A stretch of 25,206 nucleotides of DNA from a virus, in IMG/VR virus record IMGVR_UViG_3300042465_003056, positions 1-25,206 of that record, one strand, 5' to 3'. Positions 453 to 11,473 of the stretch are shown piece after piece. How positions within the stretch are numbered: position 1 is the first letter of the stretch; the number at the start of each line of letters is the position of its first letter. A model generated the notes under the pieces. That model did no database searches and was not told the origin of the DNA. It saw nothing but the letters and a program-made list of their open reading frames with translations. The position numbers and the translations under genes were made by a program.

Positions 453-1574
453 TTATTGAAGTTTAGTAAGAGCAGCAGACAACTGTTGCCCGATTAACAG
501 CACAGCAGGGCGAGGATCGTCTACATGTGCCATTGTGTTACCCGATGAAATAGAAACGGTTGACCCTTCTGGTAAAGGCTGTTTAAGCTTCTTGAGCTTC
601 TTTTCAGCCTGAGCAGGAGAGATAAACGATGCTTCCATCACATCAGATTCTGTAAGGCCAGCATCAAGTAAAGCTTGTTTAGCTTCTACTTCATCTGACC
701 ATTTACGGGTTGACCGTTTGGCAACCAGTTTGTAATTCGGTAAATCACGACCAGATTCTAGCATGTTAAATGCTAAAGCACGCAAATCTTTTATCCATTC
801 TTCTAAAATCTCAGCGTTCTGAAGATACGCATCAATAGTAGGGATGTCGATAGCGTCAATCTTAACTTTCAATGCGCGTTCAACTGCACCTGTCATTAAT
901 GGGCAGGTAGGTTTAGCTGCACACCATTTACAATGGCTACCTTCCCGAAGGGGAGCGTCAATCTTTTGTGATGCTTTAACGGCACTTAACAATTGCTGTT
1001 CAAACGCTTTGATGCGTTCTATTGATGTTACCCAACGTTTAATCATCGGAGGTTGGATAATGATTAGCTCGACTTCTTTTACGTCTTTAAATGCCCATTT
1101 TGCTTTTTCAGTACGCATCGCAGCAGCAGCGTAAAACATCAACTGCTCGTTTTCTTTTGCTTCTACGATAACGCCATTGCCAAACTTCCAATCCAAGACA
1201 ATAGCACGATCATGTATACGACCAAGCAGATCGCAGCTGCCGAATACGTCAGGAATGAAATCACCGAAATTAACTTCAACTTCGACTTCATAAACCATTT
1301 CATTTTCTGGATCAACTTCATCTAGTAACCCCAGTGCGACATTGATTTTTTCATCGATTAAATCTTGCGTCAATATAACATCTTCATATTGATCCCCGAC
1401 TACAGGCTTTGTACCAATACCTAAATATTCAGCAATGGTATTATGAAGAAGTGTACCCTCGTCAGCGTAAGAAGATGAAGGCTTTTCAGGCGCTTCATTA
1501 CACAGTTTGACTGAGCCTGGGCAGTTGATAACACGTTTGGCAGTAGAACCACCAACTATTTTACTGTGTGCCAT
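453..1574 (-). CDS. DUF2800-family RecB/Cas4-like nuclease with predicted iron-sulphur cluster
   Basis: This 373-aa protein has the layout of phage DUF2800 proteins, which belong to the PD-(D/E)XK (RecB/Cas4-like) nucleases. Visible residues: DEGTLLH around E39-H44 (motif I), D115 in GSCDLLG, LDWKFG with D128 and K130 (the D-x-K core), and QLMFY with Q144 and Y148 (the Q-x3-Y motif). Cysteines at 18, 215, 218 and 224 form the one-plus-three pattern seen in AddB/Cas4-type nucleases that bind a 4Fe-4S cluster. The likely role is 5'-3' or end-processing exonuclease in phage recombination and replication. It is the first gene of the leftward operon, with the ATG at 1574 beside the shared control region. 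Family assignment is firm; substrate is inferred. Confidence 0.85.
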   Translation of the reverse strand: MAHSKIVGGSTAKRVINCPGSVKLCNEAPEKPSSSYADEGTLLHNTIAEYLGIGTKPVVGDQYEDVILTQDLIDEKINVALGLLDEVDPENEMVYEVEVEVNFGDFIPDVFGSCDLLGRIHDRAIVLDWKFGNGVIVEAKENEQLMFYAAAAMRTEKAKWAFKDVKEVELIIIQPPMIKRWVTSIERIKAFEQQLLSAVKASQKIDAPLREGSHCKWCAAKPTCPLMTGAVERALKVKIDAIDIPTIDAYLQNAEILEEWIKDLRALAFNMLESGRDLPNYKLVAKRSTRKWSDEVEAKQALLDAGLTESDVMEASFISPAQAEKKLKKLKQPLPEGSTVSISSGNTMAHVDDPRPAVLLIGQQLSAALTKLQ

Positions 1575-1690
1575 TAATATATTCCCGTTTCGTTTAAAGT
1601 GAATATATTATTCCACAAAAAAATATATTGTACAAATGTTTTTTACAATGATAAGCTATAACCTCACTAAACGAAACGAGAGTAAACAAC
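1575..1690. promoter_or_regulatory. Divergent promoter/leader region between the leftward nuclease operon and the rightward early operon
   Basis: This is the only gap between diverging genes in the window and it is strongly AT-rich. A palindrome TTGTACAA at 1628-1635 sits near the centre. On the minus strand TTGTAC is followed after 17 nt by AATAAT, a plausible -35/-10 pair. On the plus strand the same box is followed after 17 nt only by ATAAGC, a poor -10. The plus strand also carries CCTCACTAAA at 1662-1671, identical to part of the T3 RNA polymerase promoter core, though the GGGAGA start is replaced by CGAAACGAGAG. The region must hold promoters; which polymerase reads them is not decided by the sequence. 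Confidence 0.65.
1586..1678. repeat. 11-bp perfect inverted repeat flanking the divergent control region
   Basis: CGTTTCGTTTA at 1586-1596 is the exact reverse complement of TAAACGAAACG at 1668-1678, with 71 nt between. Each arm ends 11-12 nt before the start codon of its own gene, so the two divergent transcripts begin with the same motif followed by a purine-rich ribosome-binding stretch (GGGA on one side, GAGAG on the other). It may be a shared promoter or operator half, or a conserved translation leader. Confidence 0.75.
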
Positions 1691-1906
1691 ATGAACAAAA
1701 ATACAATGATTGCAATAGCAGCAGTAATTTCTTTTATTTCTGGAGGTATAGCTATCAATAAACTATCTAATAATGAATCTAGTGTAATCCACAAAACTCG
1801 CAGCGGATCATTCATTATTCAAAAAAATTTAAAAGGCGAGGAACAAATATATCAGGTGTTGGAATTGCCTGGTAATGTTCCCAGCTTTGTAACTCCAAGA
1901 GATTAA
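1691..1906 (+). CDS. Small signal-anchored protein, first gene of the early operon
   Basis: A 71-aa protein not recognised from any family. Residues 6-22 (MIAIAAVISFISGGIAI) form one hydrophobic segment after a short basic N-terminus, so it is probably anchored in the inner membrane with about 45 residues outside or in the periplasm. The rest is polar, with KGEEQIYQVLELPG near the end. The ATG is preceded by GAAACGAGAG. The TAA stop at 1904-1906 is followed at once by the ATG of the nuclease gene, which supports a real co-translated gene. Function unknown; a role in host takeover or exclusion is only a guess from position. Confidence 0.65.
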   Translation: MNKNTMIAIAAVISFISGGIAINKLSNNESSVIHKTRSGSFIIQKNLKGEEQIYQVLELPGNVPSFVTPRD

Positions 1907-2194
1907 ATGCTAGAACGTGACATTGAAAAATATTTTAAATGGGTAGTTGAAGTGAACGGAGGAAAGACGTATAAATTCACTTCACCTGCACATAGAGGTG
2001 TAGCAGATAGAATTGCTTGCATGTCGGACGGCTCGTGCTGGTTCGTCGAATTAAAAACAAAAGGAGGTAGATTATCAGAATTACAAAAACTATTTGCACA
2101 AGAAATGATAAGGCTTAACCAAAACTATGCGTGTCTTTGGACAATAGAACAGATTGATAATTGGGCAATAGAATGTTTGGGATTACATATTTAA
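1907..2194 (+). CDS. VRR-NUC domain nuclease
   Basis: This 95-aa protein is a stand-alone VRR-NUC (PF08774-type) nuclease, a PD-(D/E)XK fold with a single domain. E3 in the first helix, D34 in HRGVADRIAC, the E48-x-K50 pair in WFVELKTKGG and Q60 in SELQK match the expected active-site order. Stand-alone phage VRR-NUC proteins of about 90-110 aa are common next to SNF2-type helicases, and one lies in this operon at 3764. The likely role is structure-specific cleavage of branched DNA or replication/recombination intermediates. The start is the ATG directly after the upstream stop codon. Confidence 0.9.
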   Translation: MLERDIEKYFKWVVEVNGGKTYKFTSPAHRGVADRIACMSDGSCWFVELKTKGGRLSELQKLFAQEMIRLNQNYACLWTIEQIDNWAIECLGLHI

Positions 2195-2283
2195 TTAGAT
2201 TGATTATATGTTTAGTAATTTTAACGGTCATGCTTCCGCTGGCCATCATTAATTTAGGGGTAATGAAATGGAAAGAGAAATAG
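2173..2283 (+). CDS. Tiny hydrophobic membrane protein overlapping both neighbours
   Basis: A 36-aa frame starts with ATG at 2173 inside the end of the VRR-NUC gene and stops with TAG at 2281-2283 inside the next gene. The product is MFGITYLIRLIICLVILTVM followed by LPLAIINLGVMKWKEK: one membrane-spanning segment with a basic tail. It fills the otherwise empty gap between 2195 and 2267. The ribosome site is weak, so expression would depend on translational coupling. Single-span mini-proteins are common in phage early regions. Function unknown. The composition could also arise by chance from AT-rich DNA, so I hold this at even odds. Confidence 0.5.
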   Translation: MFGITYLIRLIICLVILTVMLPLAIINLGVMKWKEK

Positions 2284-2450
2284 ATCAAGACATAGACTGG
2301 TTGTATGCACAAACAGTAAAAGGAGGACTTAAACGTCCAACTGAGAAGCAAGAAGATGAATTTGATTATCTAGTGAGCCGATACAGACGTTTGTTAGGGC
2401 TAACTGTATCTTCAGCCAGAACACGAGCTTTCAAGGAAGTTATGATGTAA
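2268..2450 (+). CDS. Hypothetical 60-aa early protein
   Basis: The ATG at 2268 follows an AGGGG ribosome site at good spacing. The protein is charged and soluble-looking, starting MEREIDQDIDWLYAQTVKGG and continuing with EDEFDYLVSRYRR and a Ser/Arg-rich end. It is probably alpha-helical. I do not recognise a family or motif. It lies between the VRR-NUC and DUF3310 genes on the same strand, so it is part of the early operon. Confidence 0.7.
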   Translation: MEREIDQDIDWLYAQTVKGGLKRPTEKQEDEFDYLVSRYRRLLGLTVSSARTRAFKEVMM

Positions 2451-2486
2451 TTAATTTTTCCACCAATAAACTTATGGAGCTATCCC

Positions 2487-2699
2487 ATGCCCGACAAAAA
2501 GATGGTTGGGGGTAAGCATTACTTATTACCGATCCAACCCGTTACTTACATCCATGCTAACAATATACTGTTTATGGAAGGTAACATAATAAAGTACATT
2601 ACGCGCCATCGAAGCAAGAATGGCGCAGAAGATATAAAGAAAATCATACACTACTGTGAACTAATCCTGGAGCTTGAATACAATGAATCAACGAGATAA
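2487..2699 (+). CDS. DUF3310 family phage protein
   Basis: A 70-aa protein with the complete DUF3310 pattern: GGKHY near the start, PIQPVTYI, then FMEGNIIKYITRHRSKNGAE and DIKKIIHYCELILE. This small helical domain is widespread in phages, often annotated as a nucleotide-kinase-like protein of unknown function; no kinase motif (P-loop) is present here. The GGAG site 7 nt before the ATG fixes the start. Its end overlaps the next gene's start by 17 nt. Confidence 0.9.
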   Translation: MPDKKMVGGKHYLLPIQPVTYIHANNILFMEGNIIKYITRHRSKNGAEDIKKIIHYCELILELEYNESTR

Positions 2700-3147
2700 A
2701 CAACGAAAAAGATGCCTTGAGTATTACCATAAGAACAAAAAAGCCATACACGAACGCGTTATGCTAAAACGCAAAATGGATCGTTTAAAAGCTAATGTTG
2801 TTGTAATCCCTCCAGTACCTCAAAAAAGCATTACTAAGAAAGAAATAATGGCTTTAATCGGCATTAAAGCATTGATGATGGATAAGATCATTAAAGATTC
2901 TAAATATTGTATGCCTAAGCATGTCGCCACCCATATTGACGGTTCAATTCTATTCAACCGAGCCGAGATCATGGATTGGCTTCCTTATATCAGAGAAGTC
3001 TGCGCGTTCATGTATAAACGTCCTCCGATCAAATTAACTGGAATGGCAGCGCAAATTGTCCAATTCATGCACCGCAGTAAAGACATGGAGTTGTATTGTG
3101 ATGAATTAAGACGTAAACAGTTAGATGGAAGAATTAATAATGGCTAG
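2683..3147 (+). CDS. Basic protein with predicted helix-turn-helix (excisionase/AlpA-like) region
   Basis: The start is taken as ATG 2683 because GGAG at 2669-2672 is well placed for it; a TTG at 2674 lies too close to that site. The 154-aa product is very basic at the N-terminus (RDKQRKRCLEYYHKNKK). Residues around 48-95 (ITKKEIMALIGIKALMMDKI, later ILFNRAEIMDWL) look like a winged helix-turn-helix of the excisionase/AlpA type, with two helices and a beta wing. The C-terminal part has MAAQIVQFMHRSKDME. It is probably a DNA-binding regulator. I cannot name its family with certainty. Confidence 0.7.
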   Translation: MNQRDKQRKRCLEYYHKNKKAIHERVMLKRKMDRLKANVVVIPPVPQKSITKKEIMALIGIKALMMDKIIKDSKYCMPKHVATHIDGSILFNRAEIMDWLPYIREVCAFMYKRPPIKLTGMAAQIVQFMHRSKDMELYCDELRRKQLDGRINNG

Positions 3148-3415
3148 GGATGTAGACTACGCCCTCATATTGCAAGTGCTTTATAGTAGAGGCTACACCT
3201 TAGCCAGTATATCAAGAGTTACAGGCACAGCGGTAAGCTCGTTATCTAATGTAAAACAAGAAACTAAACCTGTACCAATTGGTTGGCATGATGGCTGGGA
3301 AGGAATGGCATTGCAAGACTATTACCGTAAAGCATTAGGTGAAGCACCGCCCTATGTTGGGGATTACATTGAACTTGGAGAATATTGTGAAGAAAATGAT
3401 ACGGCCATTATCTGA
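3140..3415 (+). CDS. Small protein with predicted helix-turn-helix
   Basis: Start ATG 3140 is chosen over the in-frame ATG at 3125 because GGAAG at 3128-3132 is correctly spaced for it. The 91-aa product begins MARDVDYALILQVLYSRGYT; the stretch RGYTLASISRVTGTAVSSLS reads like the turn and recognition helix of a Cro/phage-repressor-type helix-turn-helix. The C-terminal half contains WHDGWEGMALQDYYRKALGE, a segment also seen after such domains in other phage proteins. A role as a transcription switch for this phage is inferred. It overlaps the preceding stop by 8 nt. Confidence 0.7.
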   Translation: MARDVDYALILQVLYSRGYTLASISRVTGTAVSSLSNVKQETKPVPIGWHDGWEGMALQDYYRKALGEAPPYVGDYIELGEYCEENDTAII

Positions 3416-3593
3416 TGAAAATGCACGTTGCTTAGGAAGCAACTGCGACAAGAAAGAAAACTGCTCACGTTATCTATCTATTGAAGTAGATACAAAAGAT
3501 TACATGTGGCATGGTGACTTTAAAAAAGAACTGAACCAACTTGAATGTGACCTTTTTATTGATTTTAGAGATGGTAATTACTATGAGCATTAA
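3396..3593 (+). CDS. Cys-rich small protein, putative zinc knuckle
   Basis: A 65-aa protein when started at ATG 3396; an upstream GTG at 3339 would add 19 residues that overlap the preceding gene and is less likely. Cysteines at 12, 17, 23 and 51 (CLGSNCDKKENC, then LECDLFID) suggest a metal-binding knuckle. Phages often carry small early proteins with this C-x4-C-x5-C start followed by Arg-Tyr; none that I know has an assigned function. The ribosome site is poor, so translation is probably coupled to the upstream gene. Confidence 0.65.
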   Translation: MIRPLSDENARCLGSNCDKKENCSRYLSIEVDTKDYMWHGDFKKELNQLECDLFIDFRDGNYYEH

Positions 3594-3595
3594 AA

Positions 3596-3670
3596 ATGGC
3601 TAATAAGACAACTAACGTCAAAAAAAACGTTTTTAAAGCTAACGAGCGCAGTTATGAAACCAAAAATTAA
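3596..3670 (+). CDS. Possible 24-aa peptide (doubtful)
   Basis: ATG at 3596, two bases after the preceding TAA, opens a frame MANKTTNVKKNVFKANERSY ending in ETKN and a TAA at 3668-3670. It is basic and lacks any recognisable motif. It occupies the gap before the 39-aa gene and overlaps its first 17 bases. There is only a weak GAG upstream. I list it because it tiles the operon neatly, but it may not be translated. Confidence 0.25.
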   Translation: MANKTTNVKKNVFKANERSYETKN

Positions 3671-3773
3671 ACGAGTAGGGCGATTTTGGGTATGTGGAGG
3701 GCCTTATGAAATTGCAGGATATGGACGCACTCCATGTGAAGCTTATTTAAATTGGAGAAACCAATGGTTTTAA
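3654..3773 (+). CDS. Small conserved-type phage protein, 39 aa
   Basis: Hand translation from ATG 3654 gives MKPKIKRVGRFWVCGGPYEI then AGYGRTPCEAYLNWRNQWF and TAA at 3771-3773. The pattern KPKI-R, a W-x-C pair and GxGxTPxEAYxxW is one I recognise from tiny phage proteins that lie beside helicase or replication genes; it probably forms a small beta-beta-alpha unit. It overlaps the helicase start by 10 nt, which supports a genuine gene. Function unknown. Confidence 0.75.
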   Translation: MKPKIKRVGRFWVCGGPYEIAGYGRTPCEAYLNWRNQWF

Positions 3774-5107
3774 GACCTTATCAGGATGAAGCTGCTGATT
3801 TCTTGTACAGCCGTGATCGAGCGATGATTCTTGCGCCAGTTGGTGCTGGCAAAACTTGTATCACTCTAACAGCTATGCAAGCGATGATACAGGACGGGCA
3901 TGTTAAACGATTCTTAGTCCTTGCACCTAAACGTGTGTGTACTGATGTTTGGAGGCAGGAAGGGCTTAAATGGGCGCCTAACATATTCATTGAAATAGCC
4001 ATAGGAACTGCTAAAAACAGAATAGCAGCGTTTAATTGCGCTGCTAATGTGATCGTCACTAATTACGACAATCTGTTATGGCTATGCCGTGAACGTCCCG
4101 ACTTGCTTAAAGGCTTTGATGGCATCGTGTTTGATGAATTGACACGTTTGAAGAACCCGTCTGGGTCACGTTTTAAAGCCTTGTTCAAAGTGATAGACCT
4201 GTTCAAGATACGGTGGGGCTTGACCGGATCGTTTACTAGCAATGGCTTAGAAGACGTGTTTGGACAATGTAAAGTAGTAGACCAATCATTGCTAGGCAGA
4301 AGCAAAAACGCTTTTCTGCAACAGTATTTTGTTCTGATGAATCGTGATTATGGTGAATGGGCTGCACGTCCTGATTCCTTACCTAAGATTATGAAAACTA
4401 TCAAACCAGCTACCTATCTATTGGATGCAGGAGATTACGCTGATCTGATGCCACCTTTGCACATAGTTGAGATTAAATGCCGAATGGACATGGAGCATTA
4501 TAATACTATGAAGAAGGATTTAGTAGTAGCGTTCCCCAGTGCAACTGCGGTTGCAACTAATCTTGCAGTAGTGACGGGTAAGCTTCAACAAATGAGTTCT
4601 GGGTTTGTTTATCACTCAACAACTACACCCAGTAAGTCGCCAGGTAAGTTCAACACTTCCACACAATCTATATGGTTTTCTAGTCATAAATTCGATAGAT
4701 TAGAAGAATTGCTTGCAGAAAATCAAAGAGATTGTACAATGATTTTTTACATGTACAAGGAAGAACTTGAAGAACTCAAACGGAGATACCCTCACGCTCA
4801 AACATTAGATGATCCTGATGCCGTTGAGCGCTGGAATACGGGGCTGATTGAGTTGTTGTTGGCACACCCTAAGAGCGCAGGGCATGGTTTGAATCTTCAG
4901 CATCACGGCAATAAGATAGTGTTCTTATCATTGCCTTGGTCATTGGAGTATTTTGAACAGGCAATCGGTCGTATTCACCGGAGTGGTCAGAAACGTGAAG
5001 TGTGGTGTTATATTTTAATGACTGAAAATACTATAGACGAGCGCATTTATTCTGTTTTACAAGAGAAATGTACTTTATCTGAAATTGCGATAGCGGAGTT
5101 ACGATGA
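3764..5107 (+). CDS. SNF2-type (superfamily 2) DNA helicase/ATPase
   Basis: The start is ATG 3764, 7 nt after GGAG; the in-frame TTG at 3752 overlaps that site. The 447-aa product has the full set of SF2 motifs: RPYQ near residue 4 (Q-motif), LAPVGAGKT at 23-31 (Walker A), LVLAPKRV (Ia), IVTNYDN (Ib), FDELT at 123-127 (Walker B, with DELT in place of DEAH), WGLTGS at 151-156 (III), then SAGHGLNLQ (V) and QAIGRIHRSGQ (VI, the SNF2 signature). It probably translocates on duplex DNA during phage replication or recombination, together with the VRR-NUC and DUF2800 nucleases. The 61-aa partner gene overlaps its stop as ATGA. Confidence 0.93.
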   Translation: MVLRPYQDEAADFLYSRDRAMILAPVGAGKTCITLTAMQAMIQDGHVKRFLVLAPKRVCTDVWRQEGLKWAPNIFIEIAIGTAKNRIAAFNCAANVIVTNYDNLLWLCRERPDLLKGFDGIVFDELTRLKNPSGSRFKALFKVIDLFKIRWGLTGSFTSNGLEDVFGQCKVVDQSLLGRSKNAFLQQYFVLMNRDYGEWAARPDSLPKIMKTIKPATYLLDAGDYADLMPPLHIVEIKCRMDMEHYNTMKKDLVVAFPSATAVATNLAVVTGKLQQMSSGFVYHSTTTPSKSPGKFNTSTQSIWFSSHKFDRLEELLAENQRDCTMIFYMYKEELEELKRRYPHAQTLDDPDAVERWNTGLIELLLAHPKSAGHGLNLQHHGNKIVFLSLPWSLEYFEQAIGRIHRSGQKREVWCYILMTENTIDERIYSVLQEKCTLSEIAIAELR

Positions 5108-5289
5108 AATTAAGTTGGCGAAAACTAAATGAAGTATTACCGGATTTAGAAGAAGAAGAAGTGCTAACCCTTCTTGAGATGGAAAAAGTAGGTGCTAGAC
5201 GTGCGATGGTTTTGATACGGCTACATCAACGTTTTTGCACCTTGAGGATGGCTAGAGAGCGCAATCAATTATTTGGAGAACAACAATGA
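5104..5289 (+). CDS. Small helical protein linked to the helicase
   Basis: A 61-aa charged, helical protein (MKLSWRKLNEVLPDLEEEEV, then VGARRAMVLIRLHQRFCTLR and MARERNQLF). I recognise this pattern from phages in which a short protein directly follows the SNF2 helicase. The start overlaps the helicase stop by the ATGA arrangement, so translation is coupled. It may be a helicase accessory subunit; that is inferred only from constant neighbourhood. Its own TGA overlaps the next ATG. Confidence 0.75.
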   Translation: MKLSWRKLNEVLPDLEEEEVLTLLEMEKVGARRAMVLIRLHQRFCTLRMARERNQLFGEQQ

Positions 5290-5600
5290 TCTTTTATAAC
5301 TTTGAAGAACTAGAAGCTAAACTTTATAGAGCTAGATTGATTAATTTATACCTTACTATAGCTTTAATCATATCCTTAATGGTTAATGTAGCATCAGCAG
5401 AATCAATCAACTGCACAACTTTTGGTACTTTAACAACATGTTCTAATGGAATGACAATCAACAGAATGGCATTAGGTACAAACATTACTACACCTGAATT
5501 GCCGATCTTACCGCCAATGGAGCAAATAGCACCTGCTATGCTAGTTGCCCCATTTCCTCAAATTCAACCTATTGAGCCAATCCCCGGCTTCAATAAGTAA
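5286..5600 (+). CDS. Exported proline-rich small protein, last gene of the early operon
   Basis: A 104-aa protein. After a charged N-terminus, residues 20-35 (NLYLTIALIISLMVNV) are hydrophobic and are followed by ASA-ES, a good signal-peptidase I site after residue 38. The predicted mature part (about 66 aa) has two cysteines (C43, C52) that could form a disulphide in the periplasm, then a proline-rich tail (PELPILPPMEQIAP, PQIQPIEPIPG). No lipobox. It does not look like a spanin, having no long coiled coil. Family not recognised. A periplasmic role such as superinfection exclusion is a guess. Its TAA ends at 5600, where the opposite-strand gene's stop begins at 5601. Confidence 0.7.
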   Translation: MIFYNFEELEAKLYRARLINLYLTIALIISLMVNVASAESINCTTFGTLTTCSNGMTINRMALGTNITTPELPILPPMEQIAPAMLVAPFPQIQPIEPIPGFNK

Positions 5601-5762
5601 TTATTCAACTTCTGTTTCAGCAGGCATCGCTTGAACTTGTGGGCCTGCTTGAAGTTGTATTTTTTGGATGACTGGTGCAACTTGAGTAAATTGACCAACT
5701 CCCAATGCGTTCATGATGATGTTTAGTTCTTCTAATGACAATGTCAATGTAATTTCGTTCAT
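5601..5762 (-). CDS. 53-aa phage protein at the end of the late operon
   Basis: Hand translation of the minus strand from ATG 5762 gives MNEITLTLSLEELNIIMNAL, GVGQFTQVAPVIQKIQLQAG and a Gln/Glu-rich end. The ATG overlaps the lysozyme TGA as ATGA. The pattern (beta-strand, then EELNxIxxALGxxxxxxVxxxIxKIQxQ) is one I know from small conserved proteins in many tailed phages, often near late or structural genes, with unknown function. It fills the otherwise empty stretch before the convergent early operon. Confidence 0.8.
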   Translation of the reverse strand: MNEITLTLSLEELNIIMNALGVGQFTQVAPVIQKIQLQAGPQVQAMPAETEVE

Positions 5763-6190
5763 GATAATATTAAATCTGCTTCTTTATTTCTACGAATAGT
5801 AAGACCTTTTAAGACCTTACCGCCTGCTTTATCCCAACGTTTGATTTCAACCGCTGCGGAAATCCAATCATTAGCATCTACTTTTTTCTTCAGCGTTGAA
5901 GAAGTGTAACTACCAATGCCTAAATTATAAACAAAATCTGCTATTGCAGCTTGTTTTTCCATATTAACTGTTGCTAGTATGGGAGAAGCTTTAATCGCTT
6001 GATTAAGCACCTCTAATGCCGTTTTAATCAAATCTTCATCGGCTTGGTTTTGAGTCCATACCATGCCTTCTTTAATGCCTTTGGTTTGACCCCAGCCGAT
6101 TGTTACCACACCAATACAATCTTTATATGCTTTTAACTTACATCCTTCTGATTCTTTAATAAGTTTGATTAATAGTTCTAATGCCGACAT
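5759..6190 (-). CDS. Endolysin: T4-type lysozyme (glycoside hydrolase family 24)
   Basis: This 143-aa enzyme cleaves the peptidoglycan glycan chain. The active-site triad is complete: E15 in ESEGCKL, D24 in AYKDCIG and T30 in VVTIGWGQT, with the E+9=D, D+6=T spacing of T4 lysozyme (E11, D20, T26). Later parts match too: AAIADFVYNLGIGSY, and GLTIRRNKEADL near the C-terminus. There is no signal or SAR segment, so release to the periplasm needs a holin; candidates lie just upstream. The start overlaps the preceding stop as TAATG. Confidence 0.95.
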   Translation of the reverse strand: MSALELLIKLIKESEGCKLKAYKDCIGVVTIGWGQTKGIKEGMVWTQNQADEDLIKTALEVLNQAIKASPILATVNMEKQAAIADFVYNLGIGSYTSSTLKKKVDANDWISAAVEIKRWDKAGGKVLKGLTIRRNKEADLILS

Positions 6191-6429
6191 TAACCTTTAC
6201 CAAAAATGTATGCCACTACAGCAAATATAGCACCAACAGCAAAAACAATCCCTCCGAAGAATCCCTTGTTGTTTGCAGATTCTTTTTTAAGTTCATCTAA
6301 CGCTAAGAAAATACGATCCGATCTTCTTCTGGAATCTTCAAGTTCTTTATGAAGTTCTTGCGTAAGCCCTTCAATCTTTTGTTCTACTTTAGCAACTCTA
6401 CAGTTAAGGTTAAGGTCAAGGTCTGTCAC
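6190..6429 (-). CDS. Coiled-coil protein with C-terminal membrane segment, probable lysis component
   Basis: A 79-aa protein starting with GTG at 6429, preceded by AAAGGA at suitable distance. Residues about 10-50 form a charged coiled coil (RVAKVEQKIEGLTQELHKEL, SRRRSDRIFLALDELKKE); residues 57-75 (FFGGIVFAVGAIFAVVAYIF) span the membrane once. This design resembles XhlA-type haemolysin/holin partners and anti-holins. It lies between the short holin candidate and the lysozyme, so a role in lysis timing is likely. Which of the two membrane proteins is the effector cannot be told from sequence. Confidence 0.7.
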   Translation of the reverse strand: MTDLDLNLNCRVAKVEQKIEGLTQELHKELEDSRRRSDRIFLALDELKKESANNKGFFGGIVFAVGAIFAVVAYIFGKG

Positions 6430-10031: not shown

Positions 10032-11473
10032 TATTGCATCCCCTTAGTATGCGCAGCTAAAGCCTTATCATATTTAGCAGCAGCGGTTTCAGACATAATA
10101 CCTTTAGTTACTAAATCATCAATTTCACTTTCTGAATAAGGTAATCGATTTATAATTTGTCTTTGCACCGCATCTAAATATGAATGAAAGGCTTCACGTT
10201 TAGATTCTCTACTTGATGTAGGATCATCAAGTATAGCGCCTACTTGGGCTTGTCTTTGTTGAAGTTCTACGTTTGACTGACTACCTGGCATAGTTTTAAC
10301 TGTAGCAAGTAAACCTGCAAATATAGTTTTTAATTTTGCTTCAGCTACACTAGCATCAGTATGTTGACCAAATTCAGATGCTAATTCAGCTTTTCTCACG
10401 TCCAATTTACTATTAAAAGATTTATTAATTACATCATCTATACCTTCAGATATTTTAGCTCCTTTTTCATCATACTGTGTTGTTATAGGAGGCATATCTT
10501 TGAATGCGGAAAAAGTTTGCTTCCAAGCTGCAGCATCTTCAGCGGATAAAACAGCTGCTTTTTCAGCACCTGCAACATTAGCTTTTTGTTGAGCTATTCT
10601 CTCTAAGTTTTGTTCCGAAGTCGCTTGCGGTGCATTAATTTTAGGCATTAATGATTGCGCTTTTTCTGCTGCAATAGCTCGCAATTCTTCAGGGACACTA
10701 GGATCGTTTGCCACCCGTGCATAACCTTCCATAGGATCAACAGCGCCTGGCGCTACTTGCAATTCGCGTGTTGGAGTCGCGTTTGTTAATCCCTGCGTAG
10801 GTAATGAAGGTAGAGTTTCCCATTTTTGAAGCTGCTCATTCCATATAGGCTTTTGAGGCCCTAAACCTGCTTCGTAAGTTCCTAAAGTACCTTGTAGACT
10901 TTTTTGATACTCTTGACGTTGTTTAGCTTTCTCAGTATAAAAATTCCTTCCTTCGCCAGCTAATCTTACCGCTTCAGGAGTCATAACATCAGGATCAAAA
11001 GCAGGAAAATCTGGAGGTATCATACCCCTTTGTTTAAGCATAGATAACGCTCGCCCGCTTGCATCGTTATATTTTGCACGCGCTTGAGGCTCAGGCATTC
11101 CCGATGCTTTATCCTGATCGTATTGATTAACTATAGCTACAGCTTCCCCGATTCTTAATTTTTCAATTTCTTCTTTTCGTTTAGCCTCAATTTCACCTGT
11201 TTGCGTTTCTTTATACTTATTTTCAATTTGATCTTTATATAACTGCATTTGAGCTTTTTGCTGCTCTATAGCAAATGCAGGATCAATAGCACCTACAGCT
11301 TGAAAAGATGGATTAGCTTTTTGAGCATATAACGCTTTCAAGTCCATACGTTCTTGTTGCGCTCTACGGGCATTTTGTAAAGCTATAGCGTTAGCTTGTG
11401 CTTCTTGTCCGGTCTTTAAAGCATTAGGATATGCTTCCCATTGCATTTTTAAAATTTCAGTTAAATCACTCAT
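10031..11473 (-). CDS. Putative DNA-injection protein, gp20-like by position and size
   Basis: 480 aa, Gln/Ala/Lys-rich and predicted nearly all helical, with long coiled-coil stretches (IEQQKAQMQLYKDQIENKYK, EIEAKRKEEIEKLRIGEAVA). P22 gp20 is 471 aa and has the same place between gp7 and gp16. The N-terminus MSDLTEILKMQWEAYPNALK has a style I know from phage internal proteins. No enzyme motif, signal or membrane span. It is expected inside the capsid or portal channel and to leave with the DNA. It starts one base after the preceding gene. Confidence 0.7.
   Translation of the reverse strand: MSDLTEILKMQWEAYPNALKTGQEAQANAIALQNARRAQQERMDLKALYAQKANPSFQAVGAIDPAFAIEQQKAQMQLYKDQIENKYKETQTGEIEAKRKEEIEKLRIGEAVAIVNQYDQDKASGMPEPQARAKYNDASGRALSMLKQRGMIPPDFPAFDPDVMTPEAVRLAGEGRNFYTEKAKQRQEYQKSLQGTLGTYEAGLGPQKPIWNEQLQKWETLPSLPTQGLTNATPTRELQVAPGAVDPMEGYARVANDPSVPEELRAIAAEKAQSLMPKINAPQATSEQNLERIAQQKANVAGAEKAAVLSAEDAAAWKQTFSAFKDMPPITTQYDEKGAKISEGIDDVINKSFNSKLDVRKAELASEFGQHTDASVAEAKLKTIFAGLLATVKTMPGSQSNVELQQRQAQVGAILDDPTSSRESKREAFHSYLDAVQRQIINRLPYSESEIDDLVTKGIMSETAAAKYDKALAAHTKGMQ

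Follow-up and report, generated by a model that had tools for sequence, protein, structure and literature searches.

A mirrored motif between two divergent viral genes as part of a candidate promoter-anchored leader with variable first genes

The original work on lambdoid phages is said to have described short conserved boundary sequences. Start-Associated Sequences (SAS) of cluster K mycobacteriophages are 13 bp long, contain AGGAG, and are present in 11–19 copies per genome, typically in one orientation; in the part of that account used here their function is given as unproven, with a role in translation initiation proposed (PMC3203893). Bacterial bidirectional promoters, according to the part of their description used here, have a common −10 element, with transcript starts mostly 18, and also 10 or 23, bp apart (PMC12825309). 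The locus considered here is a 116-nt segment between two divergent start codons (positions 1575–1690) in IMG/VR virus record IMGVR_UViG_3300042465_003056, whose whole 25,206-nt stretch was analyzed and is called the window below. An earlier note, made from the sequence alone, had pointed out a mirror-image 11-bp motif in this segment and proposed a shared control: a single regulator for both operons, a phage promoter present twice, or a common translation-enhancing leader. Comparison with relatives makes it reasonably likely that the segment is a compact back-to-back sigma70-type promoter producing two transcripts with homologous 5′ leaders, behind which the first genes are exchanged. A search of the literature by titles and the beginnings of abstracts found no description of such a leader or gene slot, which does not prove that none has been published.

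The motif pair itself is as the earlier note described it: CGTTTCGTTTA (1586–1596) and TAAACGAAACG (1668–1678) are exact reverse complements, separated by 11 nt from the leftward start codon at 1574 (minus strand) and by 12 nt from the rightward one at 1691 (plus strand). Read as TAAACGAAACG, the motif has exactly two matches in the 25,206-base record, 1586–1596 on the minus strand, within what would be the 5′ leader of the leftward (DUF2800) transcript, and 1668–1678 on the plus strand, in that of the rightward transcript. With one-mismatch sites at 11173 and 15553, the window holds four matches at up to one mismatch, compared with 0.38 expected; one of 100 shuffles reached four. The longest exact inverted repeat of the 116-nt segment is 11 bp. 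Inverted repeats of at least 11 bp arose in 27 of 5000 dinucleotide shuffles of the segment (P ~0.005), and among 866 comparison windows of 116 nt, one per 29 bases of the record, a single one (starting at 1567, the motif locus) has an exact 11-bp inverted repeat. Because the segment was picked after the fact, the shuffle P does not by itself exclude chance, and it is conservation among relatives that decides in favor of a real, conserved feature.

Relatives were collected by a DUF2800 protein scan, of which the best 80 of 251 were kept as loci (numbered with the prefix L). Every locus that has upstream sequence and reaches 86% identity (29 loci, L005–L033) carries the promoter core described below. 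Once loci from further scans had been added, 90 loci matching a regular expression for this core, the window and sub-loci included, were reduced to 23 haplotypes; the core, including the −10 boxes, served for selection and its own conservation is uncounted, while the leaders lie outside the expression. L034, whose contig begins within the gene, is outside all counts. Two further groups were compared, one with DUF2800 proteins ~59% identical (the “59% group,” 23 haplotypes) and a “63% group” of 15 haplotypes.

The two copies are conserved to different degrees. On the left, 21 of the 23 haplotypes have an exact copy; the exceptions are haplotype 16, where it ends in T, and haplotype 23, which has AAACTAAACG. 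The right copy is exact in seven (haplotypes 1, 2, 10, 15, 17, 18, and 22); the variants are AAACGAAACT in six, AAGCGAAACT and AAACGAAATG in one each, and a single-unit form, AAACGAGAR, in eight. One haplotype has three AAACG units on the right. Exact mirror symmetry, with both copies intact, is thus found in 7/23 haplotypes, and the symmetry itself is not conserved. The earlier note had named absence from close relatives as one finding that would speak against its proposal, and this is half the case: the left copy is mostly kept exactly, the right one mostly not. Within the left leader, the block TTAAACGAAACG is invariant at 11 of 12 columns over 21 haplotypes, against 1/9 columns before it and 2/8 after; of the two haplotypes outside this count, #7 has the block intact and in #16 it ends in T. 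In the adjoining gene, by comparison, 26 of 119 four-fold degenerate sites are invariant in the 23 haplotypes (aligned as protein), at 79–97% pairwise DNA identity. Right leaders share TCACTAAACGA, except for one base in one haplotype.

What is constant on both sides is the distance to the promoter-like boxes. Exactly 11 nt separate the −10 hexamer from AAACGA, on both sides and in 23/23 haplotypes, with the sequence at that offset altered to AAACTA in one left leader and to AAGCGA in one right leader; the longer TAAACGA is at the same promoter offset in 44 of the 46 leaders. In the 59% group, AAAC lies 11 nt past the −10 in all 23 leftward leaders. Between AAACGA and the start codon, on the other hand, right leaders have anywhere from 8 to 21 nt, depending on the haplotype. 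Left leaders have 15 nt there in 21/23, and 16 and 19 nt in the two haplotypes with an extra gene, a spacing so nearly constant that the left side alone cannot separate anchoring to the promoter from anchoring to the start codon. The fixed −10 offset together with the variable distance on the right argues that the motif is part of a transcript start or leader rather than a start-codon tag. The view in the earlier note would then be too narrow, the mirror being the visible part of what appear to be two homologous, promoter-anchored leaders.

The 27 shuffles with repeats of at least that length, and the exactness of both copies in only seven haplotypes, would speak for a chance likeness of two A-rich Shine-Dalgarno regions. 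Such a likeness is very improbable, however, given TAAACGA at the promoter offset in all but two of 46 leaders, AAAC at that offset in all 23 leftward leaders of the 59% group, and the near-identity (26/27 bases) of one right leader to one left leader described below.

The elements to which the leaders are anchored are centered on TTGTACAA (1628–1635), also found at 4732 within the helicase gene; a −35 hexamer, TTGTAC, can be read in it on either strand, the two overlapping. The predicted leftward −10 is AATAAT (1607–1612, minus strand), 17 nt from its TTGTAC, and the predicted rightward −10 is TAAGCT (1652–1657, plus strand), 18 nt from its own; both are preceded by TG, as in extended −10 elements. 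TG[AG]TAAGCT and the leftward AATAAT are in 23/23 haplotypes, all of them selected with the core. A start ~7 nt after the −10 would give a leftward 5′ leader of 1575–1600 (minus strand), and the rightward −10 position would similarly place a leader at 1664–1690 (plus strand). A consensus scan lists an overlapping leftward TGTACA-16-AATAAT, in a slightly different register from TTGTAC-17-AATAAT. The 63% group carries TTGTGCAA at the center, with TTG on each strand and without a palindrome, and a possible reading of its boxes is TTGCAC-17-TAACAT and TTGTGC-16-TATACT. TTGTACAA as an operator is accordingly disfavored; the central palindrome in the earlier note is there, and makes best sense as a pair of overlapping −35 boxes. 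Promoter activity and start sites are inferred throughout.

In the 59% group, in 14 of the 15 63%-group haplotypes, and in L079, an unscripted comparison places the ATG of the rightward endonuclease 6–8 nt past the −10-like box, and the endonuclease message would be leaderless there. The 63%-group exception is L053, with another first gene at the endonuclease position. Where an extra gene precedes the endonuclease, the place of the start codon near the predicted transcript start reads ATC, followed by AAAGGAG, in L176 (3150–3275) and L212 (3150–3275), while L179 and L209 retain an ATG near the transcript start.

Inverted, symmetric placement at two promoters could also mean that the copies are operators of one phage regulator, blocking or tuning both operons just past their starts. 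The strong conservation of the left copy is in keeping with this, and the fixed −10 distance would be expected of operators too. A candidate regulator is the 96-aa protein encoded at 3125–3415 (plus strand), which has a helix-turn-helix (HTH)-like stretch by eye and a weak match to a transcriptional repressor family (PHROG 769, E 7e-4). We nevertheless consider an operator pair unlikely: the right copy is reduced to a single AAACG unit in 8/23 haplotypes and altered in eight more, the motif is not palindromic, as an HTH dimer would usually want, the 11 long relatives have no exact copies away from the locus, and the central palindrome is lost in the 63% group. As to the HTH proteins, one of which the earlier note considered a possible regulator, the 96-aa product has the weak PHROG match and none in Pfam, and the 157-aa product has no match in PHROGs or Pfam.

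The distribution of the motif bears on this and on a second proposal. In the 11 long relatives there are 13 exact copies, all at the divergent locus, in 10 of them; the eleventh has a one-mismatch copy there. One-mismatch copies elsewhere in these relatives number six, against 21 matches of a reversed control pattern. A scan of the divergent orientation found the mirrored pair at 60–90 nt spacing in 11 viral contigs, all of the same lineage, and CTCACTAAACGAGAG occurs in 30 stretches of the viral_contigs collection, nine at this type of divergent locus (L100, L106, L107, L110, L113, L114, L118, L122, and L125). If the motif were the core of a promoter for a T7-like phage RNA polymerase at each early operon, CTCACTAAA followed by GAGA would fit, as it resembles the T3-class promoter core. 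Copies would then be expected in front of other gene groups, but exact TAAACGAAACG is at the divergent locus only in the long relatives, and exact CACTAAACG away from it was found in two of 15 records, once each. No PF00940 polymerase match was found in the records of 12 relatives (one a complete genome) or in the window's own, although IMG/VR records may be fragments; as a control, the same search gave E 9.9e-110 for a T7 record and nothing for the tool's own 14 control genomes. With sigma70-like elements upstream of both copies as well, a T7- or T3-like promoter is extremely improbable and was rejected, and the two copies of a phage promoter suggested earlier are disfavored with it.

Nor does the leader appear portable across unrelated phages. 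TAAACGAAACKRGARTA occurs in 94 stretches of viral_contigs, and the contexts of 60 among the 80 matches listed were inspected (L218–L276 and L147); the promoter core is present in none of the 59 loci L218–L276, and by a crude test 26 of these sit in a reading frame without stops for 90 bases in either direction. Seventeen of the 59 (L222–L224, L228–L231, and similar) have one recurrent sequence just before an ATG and look like one other lineage. The leader pattern also precedes an ATG in L237 and L260, which like the 17 lie outside the lineage of the window.

The gene next to the promoter-leader varies. On the rightward side, the first gene in the 23 haplotypes encodes the endonuclease in eight, a 69–72-aa protein in 11, and other content in four (one each): a C5 cytosine methylase (PF00145, E 4.3e-19, with methylase families added by PADLOC), a DNA methyltransferase (PHROG 757, E 2.9e-67), a Mom protein (PF25680, E 3.2e-43), and a pair of 70- and 112-aa proteins without Pfam or PHROG matches. 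For the 112-aa protein PADLOC gave a marginal LmuB match (E 0.0075), and for five other slot proteins scanned it gave nothing. In the right slot there are thus five different kinds of additional gene content, apart from the empty state, and the eight haplotypes with an empty slot are exactly the eight with a single AAACG unit. On the leftward side DUF2800 follows directly in 21/23; one haplotype has an 82-aa open reading frame (ORF) without matches, and one a DruA-like protein (PF14236, E 1.9e-16) with a weak Mom-like PHROG match (E 5.4e-5). The 59% group has one leftward promoter-leader and 10 clusters of first genes in its 23 haplotypes, DUF2800 itself in five and nine other clusters in 18. 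Rightward, 22/23 have the endonuclease directly; L100, a one-base variant of the search expression, was missed.

Two features of the slot genes themselves may be mentioned. In L023 (5413–7107, plus strand) a DruA/Mom-like ORF reads in frame, with no stop, into DUF2800, for 564 aa in total; this may be a natural fusion, or the stop codon may have been lost. Among the 69–72-aa proteins (1691–1906 in the window; also L005, L008, and L094) the C-terminal halves are similar and the hydrophobic N-terminal halves differ by haplotype, which has the appearance of mosaicism inside one small gene.

Leaders may also have moved between sides. The right leader of haplotype 19, which precedes the Mom gene, differs from the left leader of haplotype 22 at a single one of 27 bases, up to and including ATGGC; it matches those of haplotypes 2 and 11 at 25/27, and its own left leader at 24 (the four left leaders compared were chosen by eye). 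The 26/27 identity suggests copying across sides. Two 91%-identical Mom relatives (L288 and L289) follow different upstream sequence, so that Mom seems to have entered at the start codon without bringing a leader, and a left-type leader would have been joined to the rightward promoter in haplotype 19.

This near-copy, and the constant leader with a variable first gene in two groups, might be explained if the leader were a recombination linker only, kept by exchange of first genes and with no function in expression. A mere linker, however, would have no need of a fixed −10 distance; the left block is conserved even though 21/23 left slots have no extra gene; and the flanking leader bases vary. 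This makes a linker alone improbable, though less so than chance.

Taken together, the fixed offset from the −10-like boxes, the conservation, the sharing of leaders, and the differing first genes fit the back-to-back promoter with homologous leaders best. With overlapping −35 boxes in TTGTACAA, RNA polymerase could probably occupy only one direction at a time. Each transcript would open, no more than a few bases from the predicted start, with (C)ACT(TT)AAACGA(AACG)RGA, an A-rich 5′ leader continuing into a weak purine tract of Shine-Dalgarno type. The leaders of the two sides would be homologous, the right one at least partly copied from a left one, and the segment AAACGAAACG on each side may have a role in translation or promoter escape. 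The leader would form a fixed border beyond which each operon could have its first gene swapped, presumably by recombination there. Several of the swapped genes encode DNA-modification enzymes, which might serve to protect early phage DNA from restriction.

More tentatively, and with less confidence than we place in the promoter and its leaders, the duplicated leader could be a two-sided docking site: a cassette could be inserted into one early operon or the other, come under the resident promoter immediately, and pass between sides by way of the leader, giving a quick-change anti-restriction slot. In this family of uncultured podovirus-like phages, a short constant sequence would predict an exchangeable next gene, and methylases, Mom, and a DruA/Mom-like gene are found in that position. 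The genes behind such leaders would be a cheap source of candidate anti-restriction genes among small proteins, the 69–72-aa protein for example, and the two promoters with one common −35 site are a simple testable case.

Several observations weigh against the promoter-leader interpretation or limit it. The haplotypes are related, and the counts are therefore not independent. The consensus scan missed the weak rightward −10 TAAGCT, and the 14 promoter-like matches in 1400–6200 are no excess over a shuffle mean of 16.6; the promoter argument comes from conservation and not from that scan. Predicted anti-Shine-Dalgarno pairing is −4.3 kcal/mol for the DUF2800 leader and −3.4 kcal/mol for that of the 71-aa gene, and among the other 24 chosen starts 14 pair more strongly than the former and 18 more strongly than the latter. 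With pairing this modest a strong translation-enhancing role is not obvious, although some haplotypes pair more strongly, for example the CTGGAG leader of L012 (−5.9). Compared with shuffles, the 73-nt 5′ ends show no significant lack of structure (z 0.8 and 1.1), and no strong RNA structure was seen in the leaders. In L053, L176, L179, L209, and L212 another first rightward gene stands behind a different leader, so the leader sequence is not needed for swapping, and the idea that genes enter only behind the leader was dropped. (By eye, from their motifs, the further rightward first genes of L176, L179, L212, and L209 look like PAPS-reductase and HNH types.) In the unrelated contig L260, TAAACGAAACGGGAGTA lies before an ATG with TATAAT upstream. 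Finally, a search of genome_contigs for a host found no DUF2800 relatives. Of the three readings first offered, a common translation-enhancing leader still fits best, in that the element would be a leader, though one anchored to the promoter; the enhancing part is hypothetical.

The first leftward gene (453–1574, minus strand) encodes the DUF2800, PD-(D/E)XK nuclease-like protein (PF10926, E 1.3e-57; PF12705, E 9e-13). The variable first rightward gene of the window (1691–1906, plus strand) is the ORF for a 71-aa protein with a hydrophobic N-terminus, apparently a membrane segment by eye, and no match in Pfam, PHROG, or PADLOC. It is followed by the endonuclease or resolvase-like gene (1907–2194, plus strand; PHROG 93, E 2.9e-21) that comes first where the slot is empty; its product, without a Pfam match, is presumably VRR-NUC or VRR-NUC-like. 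Further rightward are a DUF3310 gene and a SNF2-type helicase, and from 5601 on the long ORFs are leftward, endolysin, head-closure, and major-head genes among them. The closest of nine named phage records is MW202483.1 (Podoviridae sp., 38.8 kb, circular), with 20% of the first 6 kb at 69% identity.

Compared with what the part of the SAS account used here describes, the leader is similarly a short asymmetric sequence just upstream of starts, at the ribosome-binding site or next to it, preceding different gene families, and uncommon in other phages (PMC3203893). It differs in having two copies per genome, mirrored and at a fixed distance from a promoter, with a weak Shine-Dalgarno part, and by eye TAAACGAAACGAGA does not fit the GC-rich, AGGAG-bearing 13-bp consensus (PMC3203893). 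Where SAS come in many copies, the 13 exact copies in 11 long relatives are all at one locus; like SAS, the leader is found before the starts of different gene families.

Bidirectional promoters, in the portion of their description used here, likewise combine symmetric elements, divergent transcription, and mutually exclusive polymerase binding, all of which are predicted for this locus (PMC12825309). It is outside their definition, having a common −35 with separate −10-like boxes (1607–1612 and 1652–1657) and predicted starts ~65 bp apart (PMC12825309). Boundary sequences in phage mosaicism, and morons, as presented in the part of that work used here, resemble it in joining a short common sequence at a gene edge to different genes beyond (PMC3029335); here, by contrast, the inserted genes are directly behind a resident promoter-like core and leader.
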